64,000 nt of DNA from Glaciozyma antarctica PI12 (Eukaryota; Basidiomycota; Microbotryomycetes; Kriegeriales; Camptobasidiaceae). Shown piece by piece: positions 1-38,886 of this stretch; position 1 is the first letter of the stretch; each line of letters opens with the position of its first letter. The DNA is taken from assembly GCA_002917775.1 (NCBI GenBank), contig KZ627159.1:1-64000 (forward strand), given 5' to 3'. The position numbers and the translations under genes were made by a program. The notes under the pieces were generated by a model that ran no database searches, was not told the DNA's origin, and was given only the letters and a program-made list of their open reading frames with translations.

Positions 1-1148
1 CCGCTCGAGCTTTGAGAGTGACAGCTGCAACGAGCAATAGTCAGGGGGAGTACGGTGGGGAAGGAACGACGGGAATCACCCCGAGAGTCGAGCAGTGCGG
101 CCTTGTTGGCGCCGCGAGGGGCGAGCTGCCAGTCAGTCGGACGAGGGACGGGAAGAACAAGCGACGCGGGTCTCCAACGAGCTCGAGGTCTCGCGTGCGA
201 GCGTCCCGGGGAGCAGCTACGTGAGAGTGAGGAGTCAGTAGCTACGAGAAGCGAGGACTGACGCAGCTCACCATCGAGCGTGAGTTCTGCGGGCCAGCGA
301 CCTCAAAAGTGGCTGCGAAGAAGCAACGGTTCAGTCGTGGCGAGGAAGAGAGCGCGAGCAGCTCACCACCAAGCGTGAGGGTCTGCGCGTCAACGTGGTC
401 GAAAGCGGCTGCGAGCGAGCGAGGGTTCAGTCGTGGCGAGGGAGGGAGGGCGAGCGAGCTCACCGCCAAGCTTGAGATCTTGTTCGCCAGCAAGGTTGGA
501 AGCAGCTGCGAACGTGCGAGGATTCAGTCATGGCGAGGGAGGGAGGAGCGAGTAGCTCACCGGCCAGGTCGAGATCCCGCTCGCTAGCGGGGTCCAACGC
601 AGGTGCGACGGATTGGGGGCTCAGTGGCAGCGAAGACGCCCGCACGCTGCTGCTCACCGGAACTTCTTATGTCCCGCACGAGAGACCGAAGCACTTCTTA
701 GCTCCTGCCCGTTTCAGACGCGAGGTAGGAGCGCGAGGTGACTTACACGCGCGAAGACGACCACGTACTCTCTCGACTTCCCCCTCGCGTGCTAGTCCTC
801 CACCCACATCGTAAGCTCACCTGTAAACGAGTACAGTTAGCTACCGCGAGCTGTTTACTGTGACGAGCACGCGCGGTCCCCTCCCCCCAGCCGACGCGTA
901 GACGACTTGCCGAACGCGTTGCAGTCTTCCTGACCGGAGGGCTCGACTTGACTCGGTTCCATCACGCGGAGGTGCTCGTGCTTGACCTGGGAGAGGATCG
1001 TTAGCATCTGTGAGCACGCGACGAGGTGGGGAAGGGAGAGAGGGAATCACACGCACAGGCTCGCGTTGACGATCCACGCTCGATAGGCGGCCGTCTTCTC
1101 AGGTTCTTGTTCGGGCAGCGCGTCTATGTCGAGACCTTGAACGTCGAT
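1..1148 (-). CDS. Unidentified spliced gene with tandem mini-exons (partial)
   Basis: I do not recognise this protein. Reading leftward, a first visible coding piece (1148-1053, with DIDALPEQEPEKTAAYRAW) is joined, after an intron ending CTAACGATCCTCTCCCAG, to a second piece starting at 986 (VKHEHLRVMEPSQVEPSG). No ATG lies in frame at the start of the first piece, so the 5' end is unresolved. Further left, an intron ends at about 815. From there the gene passes into an array of units about 97 bases long, each a GTGAGC-donor intron of about 55 bases plus an exon of 41-42 bases coding for about 14 residues (for example AASNLAGEQDLKLG and AAFDHVDAQTLTLG). The gene runs off the left edge. The oldest unit lacks an AG acceptor and one exon is 41 rather than 42 bases, so the reading frame through the array is not certain. 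The opposite strand is also open here, but the splice signals all point to the minus strand. Confidence 0.5.
266..658 (-). repeat. Tandem exon-intron array, period about 97 bp
   Basis: The donor sequence GGTGAGC (minus strand) occurs at 266, 361, 458, 555 and 652, giving spacings of 95, 97, 97 and 97 bases. Between successive donors lie an exon of 41-42 bases (561-602, 464-505, 367-408, 272-312) and an intron of 54-55 bases sharing a CCTCGCCAyGACTGAA block near the branch site and a TCGCAG end. The period is not a multiple of three, but a 42-base exon keeps phase 1 once the intron is removed. The copy at 561-602 has CGCAC where the others have CGCAG. Confidence 0.8.
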
Positions 1149-1751: not shown

Positions 1752-2713
1752 ATGTTGTTCAAGGACGACACAATTACAGTCTGGGAGTCGGTTCTGAAGA
1801 AGGCGGGAGCGGCGATCTTGTTGAAGCAGAAGCAGCGGGAGCGAACCGAGGCAGCTGGGCGTGGCGCTTCTGCTGTTGCCGGTCCATCGAACGTGGCTCG
1901 AGAGGGAGGAGTGAAAGGTTGGAAGAAGAAGCGTGCTCTATGGGAGCAGGATGAATACACGGGGGAAAGTTTCAAGGCGTCGAGGGTCGTCGAGGTGCGT
2001 CTTCCGTGGCGAGGTTTGAAGGAGGAGCCTCAGCTAACTTCCTACCGCAGGAGCTGGAAGAACCGCCCAGCCCAGAGCCCGTTATTTCTCGCAAGAAACG
2101 GAAGCAGCAGACCCCTCCCATCGCCTCGACGTCGCAGCTCTCTCCCTCGCCCTCCACCTCCGAGTCGTCGACACGCTCCAACCGCACCTCCAGAGCTTCG
2201 TCGGCCGCTCCCACTCCGAAAACAACTCGAACTTCGATTGTCCTCACGGGCGACAACGCCGTCGACCGCCAGCGCGTCCTCGACCGCGTCGTCCCCGAAA
2301 TCCTTCGCAACCTTCGCGAAGCGAATTATCCTGGCGCCGGGACTCGCGCACCTCCTGTCACTCCGACGCCCGAGGAGGAGGAGGAGGAGGAGGAAGAGGA
2401 GGAGATGGACGAGCTGGAAAGCGAGGACGACGTGGAGGTTCTTCCCGACGTCCCACCCGCGAGAAAGGTGCGGATTCTCGCCGAGGAGGATCCCAAATTC
2501 GGCTCCTGGGCCAAGCGGTTCCCCGCGGCGTGGAGAGTGCTCGTGGAGGAAGAGCTACTGGTGGAGCATAAGGCGTCACCCGAGGCGATTGTGGAGGATC
2601 GGGACGAGGAGGAGGTCGAGGACGAGGTGGAGGACGAGGTGGACGCCGAGGAGGAGGATGTGGGGAGCGTGATCAGTGATAGCGATGATGGCGAGGGGGA
2701 GGCTTTGTCGTAG
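1752..2713 (+). CDS. Acidic, probably nuclear protein of unknown function
   Basis: Two exons, 1752-1994 and 2051-2713, give 301 residues; the 56-base intron has GTGCGT, CTAAC and CAG, in phase 0. The N-terminus carries the motif WESVLKKAG (residues 11-19), followed by basic stretches. The middle has a basic KKRKQQ patch and Ser/Thr/Pro-rich sequence. A glutamate run (GAG repeat, near 2376-2405) and a very acidic C-terminus follow, around a central block RKVRILAEEDPKFGSWAKRF that looks folded. No enzyme motif is visible. A very similar N-terminal motif (WKSILQKAG) opens the Lys/Glu-rich protein at 24785-25507, so the two may be distant relatives. A nuclear or nucleolar role is only inferred from composition. 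Confidence 0.75.
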
Positions 2714-15110: not shown

Positions 15111-16008
15111 ATGCTCTTCAGCCTCTCCCTCGCCTGCTCTACCCTTGTGGCGTCCGCCTCAGGTGAGTCCCCGACTCCTCCTCTCCCGCATTCCCGCGCG
15201 CCCCGCTGACCTGACCCTCCCAATCCACTCACCTCTCGCTCACCGCCCCTCTATCCACTCCTCCCCCACACCCGCCGCTCGCCCGCCCCGGCTCCCCTCC
15301 CGCCCAAAGCTCTCACCTCCTCCAGCTCTCCTGCAGCTCTCCTCAGCTCCTCCTGCCGCCAATCCCCCACGACCGCAGAGAGCGTCGCGTACATCCCCAA
15401 TCTTATCTCGGCCATCACGAATGGGTGCGCCGACTCGTGCGAGATCTTTACGACCCGGCTCCAAGCGTGCATAACGGCGAGGACAACGGATCAAGCTCTG
15501 GCCCAGTGCTCCTGCTCCGCCAACTCGCTCAAGACGATTGGTGAGTGCTCTCGTGCTGGTTCTATGAAGGATTGGAGGGAGCTAACCTGCCTACGCGATC
15601 AGCCGCCTGCGCGCAGTGCATCGTAGCCGACCAGACGTCCACGACGGGCTCCTCCCCCATCTCCAACTACAACGGTTCGTCTTTCAGAGCCTCCAGGACG
15701 TACGCCCTTGCTGAAGCTTCTCTCTCACAGGCTTCGTCGCCCAGTGCATGTCGGTCAGCCTCGCCTCCACCTCCCAACTCCTCCCCGTCGCAGGCTCCTC
15801 CGACGCCCCCGCTTCCACCCCCGTCACTGTCGCAACCGCCCCACCTACGACCGCAACTACTCAGCGGTCCGTCGCTCAAGCCGTCGCATCCGGAACGACT
15901 CGGGCAGCCGCTGGAGCTGCGACGACGACGGCGGCTAGCTCGGGATCGGGCAGGAATGCGGCGGGGTTGATGGGAGCTGCGGGATTGCTGGCGATGTTGG
16001 TGATGTAG
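15111..16008 (+). CDS. Small secreted, GPI-anchored Cys-bearing protein (copy 1)
   Basis: Four exons (15111-15162, 15337-15540, 15603-15674, 15731-16008) encode 201 residues. The N-terminus MLFSLSLACSTLVASAS is a signal peptide. Cysteines are regularly placed (GCADSCEIF, QACIT, QCSCSA, ACAQCIVAD, then a lone Cys in FVAQCMS). A Thr/Ser/Ala-rich stalk follows, and the protein ends in a short hydrophobic tail (MGAAGLLAMLVM) after small residues, as expected for a GPI signal. It is probably a cell-surface protein. The whole layout, including three phase-1 introns and a 72-base third exon, repeats in the next gene, so the two are tandem duplicates. No known enzyme or CFEM pattern fits exactly. The exon 2 start was chosen among three nearby CAG sites because only this one keeps frame. 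Confidence 0.75.
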
Positions 16009-16491: not shown

Positions 16492-17311
16492 ATGCTCGGA
16501 CACACGCTCGTTTCTGCTGCGTTGGCGGCATCAGGTGAGTCCAGTCGCGCTCGCCTCTTCCATCACCGCCCAGCCGCTGACGTTCCTTCCTGCTCAGCCT
16601 TCGCCTCCCTCCAGGCTCCCGTCAAGCACACACCCTTCTCCGACCTCTACCGTCGCCAAGTCACCAGCGTCACGTACTCGGAGGACGCCTACATCCTCCG
16701 CATCATCGACTCGATCACGGAGAGCTGCTCGCCGGTCTGCCAGCCCTTCTTGGAGCGCACGGAGCTCTGCATCACTCGCGGAACCTCCGATAGGGACCTT
16801 GCGACTTGCACTTGCGACGGGCCATCACTGGCGAGGATGCGTAGGTCAACTGGCATGACTAGGAGGGAGGGAAGCTGACCTTCTCCCCTCGCAGAGACGT
16901 GTGCAAGCTGCATTGCCGACGACCCAGCGTCTTCAAACAGCGGCGCTTCTCTTCAAGACTACAACGGTTCGTCATCTATCTCCCATAGGGTGCAAAGCTG
17001 ACAGTTCGGGATCAGGCTTCGCTAGCCTCTGCGTTGGGGTTGACCTCGCTCGCCCGACCGCCGTTGTCGACATTGCCGGATCTTCCCAGGCCCCATCCAG
17101 TGCTTCCCCTGCTACTACCGCGCAGGCTGAGGACTCTGCCGTTCCCACGGCTCCCCCCGTCACGTTGAACAGCGGAACAGCAGCGGAGCAGGGGGTCACT
17201 GCGACGGAGGGACTGGCGGCGGCGACAACACTGGCAACGTCGGGTGCAGGCGTTCTGGGAGCTGGAGGGGTGGGAGCTGCAGCGATAATAGCTGTGCTCG
17301 CCTTGCTTTGA
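16492..17311 (+). CDS. Small secreted, GPI-anchored Cys-bearing protein (copy 2)
   Basis: Four exons (16492-16534, 16598-16840, 16895-16966, 17016-17311) encode 217 residues. A signal peptide (MLGHTLVSAALAASAFA) is followed by a Cys-bearing domain (ESCSPVCQPF, ELCITRG, TCTCDG, TCASCIADD, SLCVG), an Ala/Ser/Thr stalk and a hydrophobic C-terminus (GVGAAAIIAVLALL) that looks like a GPI attachment signal. The shared pattern ACAQCIVAD/TCASCIADD followed by Ser/Thr and YNGF, the same number of introns, the same phases and the 72-base third exon show it is a paralogue of the gene just upstream. The sequences have diverged strongly apart from the cysteines, so the duplication is not recent. Function is unknown; a wall or host-surface role is only inferred. 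Confidence 0.75.
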
Positions 17312-20553: not shown

Positions 20554-23500
20554 ATGTCCTCCTGGAGAACCCTCACCGGCAACGCCGGAAAGGGACGACG
20601 CGCAGGTCGCCCTCAGTGAGCAGTTCCTTCGACGTCTGTGCGTGCGCTGGCGCTAACACCTTCCGCCCAGGTTCAACGAAGATGCTGTTGCAGAACTAAG
20701 GGCGCTGGGATATGATCGGAGGCCTCGAGCAGCGGGAGAGGCTCCTGGGTGCGGCGCAAGGAGCGAGTGGCCGGCGTACTCGCCGGCGGAGGAACCGAGC
20801 TCGGAGGGCAGCGAATCGGCGGAGGGCACTTACTCCGAGACCGATAGGAGGGACGAACAGGCGCTGGAGTCTTCAGACGAGGTACGCTTCGGTTGACGGG
20901 GTGGGAGAGGAAGCTGACATTCGACCTCTCAGCGATCTCCTACACGGCCTTCCCCATCCCCCACTTCTTCTTCCGGCGCCAACAGCGACGACGAGTCGTC
21001 TCCAGCTAGCTCCCGATCCCGTCCTTTTGCCAAATCCAAAGCTCGACTCTCGCTCGCACAACTCTCCAGACTCGTCGAAGCGCACGGAATCGCAGCAACC
21101 TCTGCTCGACTGGCGAAAGAGCAGAGGAAGGGGAAGGGGAAGGGGAAGCAGGCGTCAAGCGCAGGAAGCGAGGGCAGCGAGGGACACGGCGATGGGAACG
21201 ATTCGGTGGCCGCAGAAGGGGACGACAGTGACGAGTCGTCAGCGCGTGAGTGGCGCGTGCGGACAGCCCGATTCGGTACTGAATTACTGTTATTCATCTG
21301 CAGTGAGTCGACGAAGCAAGCGGGACCGCAGCTCTGAAGGATCTTTGCGAACTCCTACGCCGATGCCGCGTGAGCCGTTTCTCTACAACATTCCAACTGC
21401 TGCTGACGGTACCCTCAGAGATCAAGCTCAGCAGTTCCTCAAAGAAGCTCGCAACCCGCCGCACTCCTCAGCGACTCTCATCCCCGACAAAGCCACTCCC
21501 TTCCCCTGCGCCAATCGAACGTCGCTCGTCCTCTACTTCCATCAAGGCCGCTGCCTCGCCCTCCCCCCTTAAAACGCCGCTCCTTTCCAGATCGAGTCTC
21601 GCCACGTCCAAATCTCTCGCTACATTCGCCCTCAGCACACTCTCCATTCCTCCCTTCTTCTCAGGCCTCGCGACTGGCTCTCGAATCCTTCGCCATCGCC
21701 TCCGCTGGCTCCTCGATACCGCGTGCGAGCTCGCCGACGATCCTACGCGAAGTGGAGGCCGGAGCAAGCAGCAAATCGGCAAGGAACTCGCTCGCATCGT
21801 CGGTGATCGGTCGGAGGATCGGTGGAGGATCAACAGCGCGACGTATCGAGACGAAGTCTCTCTTGAGCTCGAAGGTCGGCCGAGCTTCGTCAAGTTCTGC
21901 GCTGGAAAGGACGGAAAGGACCCGCCTATCCCCTTCTACCAGGCGTTCGTCGAGCACGCCAAGCTCTGCGGGAACGACGAGGCCGACTGCCGCTTCCATC
22001 GCGCCCTCGTCGTCTTCTTTGCCTATCGCTCGAAACCCGGGGATATGCACGCGAAGCTACCGAAGCGCTATGATATTGGCGAGAAGGACGTGAAGCGGGA
22101 GTGGAAGAAGTTTGCGACGTTCTACGAGGAATTGGAGGAGGCGGGGGAGTGGACGATTGACGTGGAGGGGGCAGTACTAGATCGCGGAGGAGCGAGGAGG
22201 TCCTCGGTCTCCCCGACGAAGCGGAAGGGTGGAGAAAGCGTGGAGCGGGATCGAAGGAAGGGCAAGAGTCCGAGGAGTTCCTCGTGAGTTCAACCTGCAA
22301 TCACATTCTCGCGCTTCGCTCAAGCTCGTCTTCAGGATTCGGATTCTTCGCCACTTCGTGCTCGCCTGCAGCTTCTTTACCTCCCTCCCGCGCTCCCTCG
22401 CCATCGACCCTTCCCTCCTTTCGACAGCGACTCGGCTCCAAGCGATCTGGCCCACCATCACCTTCGCCGACGCCGTCGTCCTCGGCAACTCCGTCATCAC
22501 GAACGCGCCACTCCTTCGACTCTCCAACCAGCAGCGATCAGCTCCCTATGGCCGCGTATTCGACTCGAACCTCGGATCTCTCGCAGGAACGCTTCTTGGG
22601 CGATCCTCGAAGGGAGCAGTCGCGTTCGAAGGCCCCGAGGGAGTCCCGCCGCGAATTGCGGCAGGCACGGCCATACTCGAGGTGGCCTCCGCACTCGGAA
22701 TCGTATCTATCGACTCGCAGGACGACCTCATCCTCCTCCCTACCCCCAGCTCCCCTCTCCGCACAATCTGCACCAGATTCCTTTCTTGTCGCCAGTGTGG
22801 TGGCGTCCTCCGAGCGCGCAAGAAGGCGACGACCGTCTGGATCCTCTTCGCTGCGTCGGTCGAACGTGGAGCGTGCTTGCGAGTGGTGTGTGCGAACGGC
22901 TGCGGAGCGACCCACCACCCCGACTTCGTCAAGTTCGCTCACGAGGGGCTGCGCGTGCGGAGCTTCGACGTCGACGCCGAGTTCATCAAGATCGGCCGAG
23001 CTCTGTACGCTCATCGCACATTCGCGATATCGTACGTCGCCTTCCTCGAGACCAACCACGTCGCCTCGTCCTCCTACGCCTCCCTCTTCTCCCGCCTCTA
23101 CCGCCCAACCTTCGAATGGGAGATCACGAGCGAGCAGGTCTGGAAGGCTTTCGTCTTCCACACCACTCTCGAACTTGCGAAGGAAGCAGGTCGCCCATTC
23201 GCGACCTCGGCGCACGCGAGCTCGGAGGATGTCGTGCGGCTCGCCTTGGAGGGGTTCCTCTCCTCCAAGACGATTCCCGAAGCGATGGACCATTCCTGCC
23301 CGGAATGCTCGCGGTACGCGAGGAAGTGGAAGGCTGGTCCTGCCGGCGAGGAGGGGGAGACTGCGACGCATCGCAAGGGAGCAGATCGGGTGCGTCGTTC
23401 TTTCGTGATTATTGGCGACGCGCTTGCTGACGACCATGCGAAGGAGCTACAAGAGCACACGATTTTAAACTCGGAGCGCATCGTCAAGCTTGCCGTGATG

Positions 23501-24629
23501 GACGGAATCGCCATCGGCCACACGGTGCGTTATCATCTCTTTGCTCGCGCAGTTTCTTATGCGAGCTTCGCTAGAAATGCGCCTATCCTCCCTGCAAGAA
23601 CGACCCAACCGACTACAAGAGCCAACGCTTCTGCTTTGACCATCAGCAGTACGACGAGCGCTGCGGCGTGTTTGGATGCGAGCGGCCACGCCTCGCAGTC
23701 GAGCACGACGAGCGAGCGAGCGAAGCGTGCGATGTGGAGGCGCATCAGGAGCTTTGGCGATCGAACCTAGCAAAGAAGGGACGCGAAAAACCTTCGGGGG
23801 TACCAGCGAATGATTGGGCGACGGAGAGAGGGGAGGGAGCCGGCGGTCGATGCGGGAGACGATTTGGGTGCGGAAGGAGAGAGCGTTGCGAGCGACGCAG
23901 GTGAGTGCCGTCTCTGCGACTGCCAAACTGGCCTCTGCTGACAATTCCTTTGCCAGGGCCCACGAAGCCTCGCACGATGTGGTCTTATGGCCGAATCGCT
24001 CGCATTCAAGTCCTCGTCTGGGCTTGCGGCTGTCCCGCCGGCTGGGAGAAGCTCTACTCGAACGAGGATGTCCCGGAGCTACTCGACTTTCTCGACAACG
24101 TCTGCGAAGACCCAGCTCAGCTCCCCTCCATCCTCGCCTACGACAACGCCTGCAAAATTCTCGCCTACATCGCTCCGCGCCCGGAGCTGCATCACTGGCT
24201 TCGTCGAATCCAGCTCATCGTCGATTCGTTCCACTTTGCTGGCCACAGCAAGTACGACGTTCTTTGCCGAACGTTCTGCGACCCTGCGCCGCTGGACGGA
24301 AGCGCACCCGATCTCGTCGTCCCTCTTGTCGAAGTTCGGCCAGCGAACTCTCGCAAACGACGCCGTACTCCGCTCAAGCACTGCCTTCGGAGGGCGTTCA
24401 ATACGGAGGTGAGTTCACGTCTGTTCCGACTCCCGCCAAGCTCGCTGACGCTCTCCCTCCTTCGCAGGCGGCCGAGCAGCTCAATAGCTGGCTCGCTGGG
24501 TTCGCCTCGATCTTGCGCCACATGCGAGCAGAGAACCACGACTTTCTCGTCCAGGTTCTGCTGCGTCGCAGGTTCCAGCAACGGTCGAAGGACTTGAAGA
24601 AGAAGCACAAGGGAGTGCGTGTTGGGTAG
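20554..24629 (+). CDS. CxC5/CxC6 cysteine-cluster protein of the KDZ-transposon type
   Basis: Ten exons (20554-20615, 20671-20881, 20933-21245, 21304-21369, 21419-22283, 22336-23389, 23444-23524, 23575-23900, 23957-24408, 24468-24629) encode about 1200 residues. The C-terminal 700 fit the CxC5 and CxC6 modules found with fungal KDZ transposases: CRQCGGVLRARKK, VCANGCGATHHPDF, HSCPECSRY, CAYPPCKNDP, RCGVFGCERPR, and a core with WACGCPAGWEK, ILAYDNACKIL and FHFAGHSKYDVLC. The first 500 residues are Ser-rich and basic, then hold a folded part (LDTACELADDP to KKFATFYEEL) I do not recognise. The two halves are joined because the CxC5 frame has no ATG and the GTGAGT at 22284 splices in phase. An alternative acceptor at 22372 drops 12 residues. 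The frame shifts by one base in the A5 run at 23786-23790, so it may be an inactive relic or an assembly error. I found no KDZ catalytic core and no terminal repeats. Confidence 0.65.
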
Positions 24630-24784
24630 CTTTCGGAATGGAGTTTGAGGTTGAACGTCGAGCAGCGAGCAGGATCCCAGATCATCGAGCAGCAGCACGA
24701 CAAACCCACAAACGACAACTTCCATTCACAAATACGAAAGAGCTCCCACCACCTTTTTGCTCCCTGCCCCTCCTCCTAAACTCC

Positions 24785-36881: not shown

Positions 36882-38886
36882 ATGTCCAAGGTAGCAGATC
36901 GGAACCAGGTGTGCCCTCTTCAAACCGTCTCGATCTCAGCCTGCAGCAGCTCACACCTTCCGACGCAGCGGCAACTTCTCGAGCTGCTCAAGCTCCCAGG
37001 CAACGACGTATGCGCAGACTGCAAGAGTAGGAACGTGAGTGGGCTGCACGCACGGAACGATTTTACTGGCGGAGTGGGAGCTAACCGAATCCTCGCAGCC
37101 TCGATGGGCGGCCTACGACCACGGAACCTTCATTTGCGTCGTCGTGCGTAGTCCTCGGCGCTGCTCTACGACCAAGCTAACGCTCAAGTGAACGCAGTGT
37201 GCTGGAGTACACAGGAAGATGGGCTCGCACATCTCCAAGGTCAAGTCCTTGACGCTCGACACCTGGTCCCGCGAACAAGTCGACGTGCGTCCTTGTTCCT
37301 CGTCCCTTGCTTCGCACGAATGCTGACCCCCGACACAGCACATGAAGGCGCGCGGCAACTCCTACTCCAACTCTCTTCTCAACCCAGACGAGTACCGCAA
37401 TCCGTGCGTTTTCCTCAGCTCGCCGCGATCCCTACTCACGCTTCCATCGCATAGCCCTCCAACCTCTCTCGACGAGTCAGAGCGCGACTCGCAACTGGAG
37501 AAGTTCATTCGCAGCAAGTACGAAGCACGCGCGTTCTCCGCTCCCGCCACCTCCACCTCGACTCTCCGCGCCCCAGCGCCAGCACCTCCGACCCGATCAG
37601 CAACCTCTCCTCTCCCACCTCGCGCCCACCCATCCCAACCCACCACTCCCGCTCGACCCACCTCATCCTCCAACTCTTCCCCCGAATCGATCAAGCACGT
37701 CCGTTTCCGACCAGCCACGGCACCGATTCCAGACCTCCCGCTTGCGGTCCCCAGCGCCCGAGCTCCAGCGAAAGGGATTCTGAGGCCCAGCAGTGCGCAG
37801 GCGAACGGTTTCGCATCGCAGATCGGAGGAGGAGGAGTGGCTCCACCGACGGTACCGGCGCGACCAGGCTACGCGCAGGTGCAGGCTGCATTCAGCGCGC
37901 TGCCGGTGGGAGGGCCGGGGACGCAGAGTTTTGGAATGGCGAACGGAACGACGAATGGAGGGATGCTGCGACCGCAGATGACGGGGAGCGCGCCTCAGAA
38001 TGGGAGTGCGCAAGCGAGCGTGCAGCAGGAGCCGAGGTTCAACCCTTCGATTTGGGACGACATCGATGCGTTGGCGGGGAAGGCGCCCACGACGTTGGCA
38101 CCTACCTTTAGCTCTCAGCCTTCCTACCTCTCTCCGCAACCTCATCAGCAACAGCAACCTCAGCAACCGCAACAGCCCTCTTTCCAACCCTCACCCTCGT
38201 TACAACCTCCCTCCTTCCAACCCTCGCCTTCGCCCCAACCTCCCTCCTTCCAGCCCTCCGCTTTTTCGCCCTCACTCCCCACCTCGACCTCGTCCTTCTT
38301 CCCCGCCGGACAGTCCTTCGTCCCCTCGTCGCAATTCGGCCAGCAGTTCGCCCAATCCTCCCCCGCCCAACCCGCCATCTTCTCCACCGCCTTCCCCTTC
38401 CAACCCAGCGGCACCACTCCTTTCCCTACTCAATCCTTTCAATCTTCGCCTCTCTACCCTACGCCCGGAATCGGGACACCGACCGGCGGATCGCAGCTCA
38501 CGAATCCGTTCCATTCGAGCATGAGCATGGCGGCGATGGGGAATTCGACGACGCCGGGAGGGACCAACCCGTTCTACAACAGCGCGCCGACGACGAACGG
38601 CGTTTCGATGGCGCAGGGATACTTTCAGCAATCGCAACAGCAACCTCAACAGCAGCAGCAGCAGCAGTCGCAGCAGCTCGAGAGCAGCTTATGGTCGTTC
38701 GCGCCTCAGCAACAGCAGCCGCAGCAGCAGCAGCAGATGTTCGCAGGGCAGTTCGCGCAGCAGCTGGTGTCGACGCCGACGGGGAACCCTTATGGAGGAG
38801 CGATGGGAGGGACGAATCCGTTTGGAGCGGGGTTCGGCGGACAGCAGCAGCAGCAGCAGCAGTATGGACGGACTTGGGGGAGCTGA
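36882..38886 (+). CDS. ArfGAP-domain protein with Gln/Pro-rich tail
   Basis: Six exons (36882-36908, 36969-37034, 37099-37143, 37198-37284, 37339-37403, 37455-38886) encode 573 residues. ArfGAPs stimulate GTP hydrolysis by Arf proteins during vesicle traffic. The zinc finger CADC...CVVC is seen in DVCADCKSRN and GTFICVVCAGVHRKMG, with the arginine-finger region HRKMGSH, then VKSLTLDTW and NPDEYRNP. The remaining 400 residues are low in structure: Pro/Ser/Gln repeats (QPSFQPSPS-like), NPF-type motifs (TNPFYN, TNPFGAG) that may bind EH domains, and long Gln runs. The layout resembles yeast Age2/Gts1 and animal SMAP proteins. The first five exons are short and all in phase. MCR1 starts only 140 bases downstream. 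Confidence 0.9.

Follow-up and report, generated by a model that had tools for sequence, protein, structure and literature searches.

A tandem array of 97-bp exon-intron units in a predicted gene of Glaciozyma antarctica

Intron-containing repeats and related gene structures

Tandem duplication of an exon together with an intron is rarely recorded, and an intron-containing repeat was already described in 2008 for another basidiomycete yeast. In the gene CNN00420 of Cryptococcus neoformans, as reported by Sharpton et al. (2008; PMC2395259), repeats of about 107 nt comprise a whole intron plus the ends of the exons. According to the same report, the gene has six introns, with EST support; introns 2 to 5 are identical or one mutation apart, the number of repeats differs between strains, and slippage, unequal crossing-over or gene conversion are proposed as the cause (PMC2395259). 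The locus presented here lies at the beginning of a stretch of 64,000 nucleotides from Glaciozyma antarctica PI12 (assembly GCA_002917775.1, contig KZ627159.1, positions 1 to 64,000), henceforth called the window. It shares with CNN00420 a tandem repeat of similar size that contains a whole intron with adjoining exon, and the presence of several similar introns within one gene. In CNN00420, however, the introns are nearly identical and backed by ESTs, whereas the halves of the present units are 52-80% alike and the edges are decayed. For a red yeast, no such array appears in the titles and the beginnings of the abstracts among the matches listed from the open-licence literature.

Other systems are more remote. 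In the Arabidopsis gene TOUCH3, sequence duplicated within the gene includes a whole intron (Knowles and McLysaght 2006, cited after PMC4974935). There, too, a tandem internal duplication carries an entire existing intron and its exonic flanks, but TOUCH3 shows two duplications in a plant gene, while the present array is a run of five short exons. Micro-exons of schistosomes are often symmetric and evolve fast. Schistosome micro-exon genes, as outlined in PMC10526429, have very short exons in series, introns of up to 5 kbp, and encode secreted proteins. The serial arrangement of very short exons within one gene is the common feature; the difference is the long introns there versus introns of about 55 nt here, where the exons are also duplicates of each other. 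Introners or introner-like elements, finally, are near-identical spliceosomal introns that are present in multiple copies in many genes (PMC9860276, PMC4457414, as far as described there). Multiple copies of similar spliceosomal introns are found here as well, yet the exons are duplicated too, and a search of the 64-kb window turned up no copies elsewhere.

Geometry of the array and its units

On the minus strand the motif GGTGAGC has its first bases at 658, 561, 464, 367 and 272. Successive donors of the array follow each other at 97, 97, 97 and 95 nt, and the units are adjacent and head-to-tail, which bears out the spacing of 95, 97, 97 and 97 bases given in the original prediction. A sixth minus-strand GGTGAGC at 821 lies outside the array. 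When the window was shuffled 200 times with its dinucleotides preserved, five GGTGAGC in a row, 90-103 nt apart, never occurred; three in a row occurred once. Tandem Repeats Finder yielded three overlapping rows with a period of 96-97 bp that together span 263-608, and no other row, of 43 in the window in total, has a period above 33. The repeat finder registers four copies of a 97-bp unit, in register.

MAFFT aligned five units, A to E, over 97 columns. Unit B (560-464) consists of a 55-nt intron (506-560, GTGAGC..ACTGAA..CGCAG) and a 42-nt exon (464-505), unit C (463-367) of a 55-nt intron (409-463) and a 42-nt exon (367-408), and unit D (366-272) of a 54-nt intron (313-366) and a 41-nt exon (272-312). 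These are indeed the 41-42-base exons and 54-55-base introns that had been anticipated. Unit D required two one-column gaps in the alignment, one intronic and one exonic, the latter making its exon one base shorter than exons B and C. The three are close copies; their introns are 71-80% and their exons 57-71% identical.

The edge copies have diverged more. Unit A (561-657, exon slot 561-602) has its donor GTGAGC at 657 and the branch motif ACTGA, and has lost its acceptor (CGCAC); compared with the other units, identity is 53-62% over its intron half and 55-67% over its exon half. Unit E (175-271) comprises a 55-nt intron (217-271) with the acceptor CGTAG and an exon slot of 42 nt (175-216), of which the closing donor is lost. 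Half by half, A and E match the remaining units at 52-67% identity. A search of the 64 kb with a profile of units B to D retrieved unit E with an E-value of 2.1e-5 and unit A with 1.7e-3; no further match to the unit profile in the 64 kb fell below E 1.6. Additional units were considered at 80-178, 658-754, 755-851, 852-948 and 1-79 and rejected, their consensus z-scores being 2.3, 1.6, 2.9, -1.1 and 2.5, as compared to 11.1 for unit A and 8.8 for unit E.

The claim that a complete exon plus intron had been duplicated in tandem, at least four times, thus holds in that both halves align across all five units. The extent first proposed, 266-658, covers the donors and is too short, for the array continues past 266 with the homologous unit E (271-175). 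A branch site and a CAG had been expected in each unit. ACTGA is indeed found in all five, in the same column, while CAG is seen in three of the four units then claimed and in three of five overall. Tandem arrays with an intact centre and decayed edges are often seen. In the present one the centre, B to D, looks like working introns and exons, and each edge unit has decayed at one splice site.

Splice signals and gene model

The window has a GC content of 60.4%, and its predicted introns are short and dense: a two-strand gene finder, self-trained on the 64 kb, called 164 introns with a median of 56-57 nt. In the last training round, which comprised 163 introns, the donors included GTGCGT (49), GTGAGT (29) and GTGAGC (15), and 144 acceptors were CAG. 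As a check of the gene finder, five multi-exon proteins, chosen because they were recognisable beforehand, were compared to Pfam, and all five passed the cut-offs (kinase, Yippee, CBS, rhodanese and FAD/NAD oxidoreductase). Four other spliced predictions scanned against Pfam gave no family at E 0.01.

Judged against the 157 introns predicted in the window outside the first gene, the three inner introns of the array are ordinary ones. The total splice scores of introns B, C and D are 15.39, 15.45 and 15.74, which is above 46%, 47% and 54% of the reference introns; donor and branch range somewhat under the reference medians, the acceptor over. The intron of unit E scores above 25% of them. Before the region was called again, the tables for coding, donor, acceptor and intron were rebuilt without the first gene. 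The rebuilt gene finder again chose the minus strand and called 506-560, 409-463 and 313-366 as introns, with the branch, start and intron-length tables still coming from the full training with the array region included, and with the underlying gene calls stemming from training rounds that had included it as well. The region 1-700 scored 35.1 nats over no gene. None of 200 shuffles reached this value, their maximum being 3.1, but shuffling also destroys the repeat itself.

The gene finder joins exon D to a predicted 46-nt exon F (80-125, minus strand; coding log-odds 3.98) via an intron of 146 nt (126-271), thereby skipping E; this joint keeps the frame (41 + 46 = 87 nt). Exon F is followed by a predicted 55-nt intron (25-79, GTGATT..CCTGAC..TTGCAG). 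The block 80-178 around exon F has a weak likeness to the unit (z 2.3) and is not counted as a copy; the idea that GTTGGA serves as donor of a sixth intron was dropped. At the other end, the gene finder passes A with the unusual acceptor ACTGAG (exon 561-619) and continues over 251 nt up to 870, a stretch that includes an exon of zero length. The joints past E and before A are unreliable. There is a gene model that crosses the array without a stop. It runs beyond the window edge at position 1, and its 3' part lies outside.

Two pieces on the minus strand within 871-1148, namely 1053-1148 (IDVQGLDIDALPEQEPEKTAAYRAWIVNASLC) and from 1007 down (MLTILSQVKHEHLRVMEPSQ...), are probably 5' exons belonging to this gene. 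In one frame they have coding log-odds of 5.1 (1150-1053) and 5.6 (1007-930). The gene finder starts at the ATG at 1007, and the piece 1053-1148 would be linked to the one from 1007 down. A further minus-strand ATG lies at 1158, next to a run of six C (1149-1154), and is offset by one base from the reading frame of the coding-like stretch 1148-1053. The offset may stem from an assembly error, from a genuine frameshift or from an upstream exon that is missing.

Coding potential and reading frame

Among the three sense frames, the one with phase 1 at either end scores highest in all five units. Its coding log-odds are 3.6 for A, 2.91 for B, 2.40 for C, 0.46 for D and 0.9-1.1 for E. It is also the best of all six frames, weakly so in D; the exception is E, in whose 42-nt slot an antisense frame scores 1.11 versus 1.07. 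Since the copies are related, the agreement in five exons does not amount to five independent tests. The peptides read in this frame are, in the order A to E, ALDPASERDLDLA, ASNLAGEQDLKLG, AFDHVDAQTLTLG, TFEVAGPQ... and APRDARTRDLELV; exon C has a stop in one of the other sense frames. For comparison, true coding 42-mers average 2.4 (sd 2.6) and stop-free intergenic 42-mers -1.8 (sd 2.3). A value of 2.4 is reached by 49% of the true coding 42-mers, by 2.3% of the intergenic ones in a fixed frame and by 5.6% of them in the best of three frames. By these scores, A, B and C resemble coding DNA, and D and E could be either.

That each copy adds about 14 residues had been proposed. The same sense frame is best throughout, as this idea implies, but a simple chain of 14 residues per copy is interrupted on the way from D to E, because exon D has 41 nt instead of the 42 of B and C; the gene finder holds the frame by skipping E. 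The 14-residue unit had also been thought to lack a described family, and within the libraries searched this is correct. Pfam gave no convincing family for the gene pieces and the predicted spliced product, with one chance-level match to LacAB_rpiB (E 0.17), and the PDB no convincing homologue, with one chance-level match (E 0.87).

What is conserved between the copies

The columns that are invariant over the five units cluster at the splice signals. All six columns of the donor are invariant, as are the five of the branch motif ACTGA and one of the two of the acceptor AG; in the rest of the intron it is 7 of 42, in the exon 13 of 42. For the splice signals this makes 12 of 13 versus 20 of 84 for all other columns (p 3e-6), and for the branch alone 5 of 5 (p 0.0013). 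These p-values are guides, as the units were partly defined by their donors, the columns share ancestry, and the five branch columns were picked after the alignment had been viewed; the sixth position of the branch consensus varies. Apart from the donor, the branch motif is the longest invariant run.

The exon columns are nominally more conserved than those of the remaining intron, which is not significant (p 0.20). Between copies, the pairwise differences at the three codon positions are 0.34, 0.41 and 0.43, i.e., nearly flat, and a pooled pS of 0.45 versus a pN of 0.37 gives little sign of protein constraint. The idea that the introns are more conserved than the exons, suggested by adjacent pairs (80% versus 64-71%), was discarded: in B, C and D 37 of 55 intron columns versus 20 of 42 exon columns are invariant (p 0.06), and this excess is due to the splice signals, without which it vanishes (19 of 37 versus 20 of 42, p 0.82). 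Over all five units without splice-signal columns, the tendency is the opposite one (5 of 37 for the intron versus 13 of 42 for the exon, p 0.11). The array, the homology of both its exons and its introns, and typical, preferentially conserved splice signals can be read from the DNA directly. With splice signals far more invariant than all other columns, the splicing looks constrained; with less certainty, the peptide repeat is likely under little constraint.

Origin of the array and alternative explanations

Probably, an exon in a fungal nuclear gene rich in introns was copied in tandem together with its own intron, which led to an array of five or more units, each about 97 bp long. Slippage or unequal crossing-over would have copied the one exon plus its intron repeatedly. 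The ancestral exon would have had 42 nt and the same phase at both ends. As 97 is not divisible by three, translation of the repeat in one frame needs the removal of each intron; an intact copy would add 14 residues in frame only once its intron is spliced out. On this reading, the array would be transcribed, spliced and translated. The original prediction had presented such arrays as an example of how new introns arise. This is overstated or not supported: the array multiplies an existing intron, it does not invent one, a distinction that is drawn in PMC4974935. Nor does the creation of introns by tandem duplication of exonic sequence with AGGT, as conceived by Rogers, describe the copies at this locus, where each unit has an intron slot with donor and branch that was copied together with its exon.

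The duplications could also have happened in a gene that has meanwhile decayed and no longer makes a protein. The gap in exon D, the lost acceptor of A, the lost donor of E, the ATG at 1158 being out of frame with the following coding-like stretch, and the nearly flat differences by codon position would all fit a pseudogene. The splice signals, however, are still conserved above background, a stop-free gene model spans the array, the 5' pieces retain a coding-like composition, and decayed edges are usual in tandem arrays; we therefore consider decay unlikely, though worth keeping in mind. The spliced exons might as well belong to a non-coding transcript or an untranslated region, in which case 42 nt would have nothing to do with codons. 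The weak protein constraint next to conserved splice signals and the missing match to a protein family are in line with this possibility, but one sense frame is best in all five homologous, if related, copies, and A, B and C score like coding DNA, which renders it rather improbable. More speculative, and in our opinion less probable still, is the use of the array as a set of alternative cassette exons, where skipping of the decayed A and E would be normal processing. The idea derives from the intact exon being a symmetric 42-nt cassette and from the constraint lying on the splice signals, not on the peptide. If true, the inclusion of any number of intact copies would shift the length of the protein by 14 residues and leave the frame intact; the array would be a length-variable or mutually exclusive one, unusual for a yeast-type fungus.

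Two further readings were considered. The array is a tandem DNA repeat with a unit that is not a multiple of three and could be a plain minisatellite with GT...AG in the unit by chance and no role in splicing. We regard this as very unlikely: aside from the donor, no invariant run is longer than the branch motif, signals of ordinary strength for donor, branch and acceptor occur together at intron spacing, and the gene-model score was reached by 0 of 200 shuffles, even if these destroy the repeat as well. A mobile introner, inserted repeatedly, could have produced introns that are 71-80% identical as those of B, C and D are. The intervening exons, however, are homologous too (57-71% among B, C and D), which fits duplication and not insertion, and no similar intron is seen elsewhere in the 64-kb window, the best match of the B-C-D intron profile outside the array having an E-value of 1.2. 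Of repeated insertion we have hardly any expectation.

To return to the tandem duplication of an exon with its intron, what selection has visibly preserved since, in an array with an intact centre and decayed edges, would be donor and branch more than the peptide. If spliced, the array would be an older and more diverged counterpart to the young case of CNN00420. It would also be a case of a repeat protein in which the repeat comes about only through splicing.

Neighbourhood and other loci in the window

Next to the gene with the array, in divergent orientation, lies a gene with very acidic tracts in its product (1752-2713, plus strand), which matches nothing in Pfam at E 0.01. Two neighbouring stretches, scanned against viral contigs, gave no confirmed relative.

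Farther away, two adjacent genes are predicted on the plus strand at 15111-16008 and 16492-17311. Their products are small Cys-rich proteins with hydrophobic C-termini, which look secreted and, by eye, related to each other; neither has a Pfam family at E 0.01. A long open frame at 22181-23770 (plus strand) has a sub-threshold match to CxC5 (E 3.1e-4; 21.3 bits versus a cut-off of 26.9), a cysteine cluster associated with KDZ transposases. The next model, 23810-24779, possibly its continuation, has no Pfam family at E 0.01. The stretch 22181-24779 suggests a degraded transposon of the KDZ type.

At 38176-38886 (plus strand) a protein is predicted that we named ArfGAP-like by eye; it contains a PSFQPSPSLQPP-type repeat and Q-rich stretches. 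Within this gene, Tandem Repeats Finder detected a tandem repeat of 33 bp at 38176-38258.
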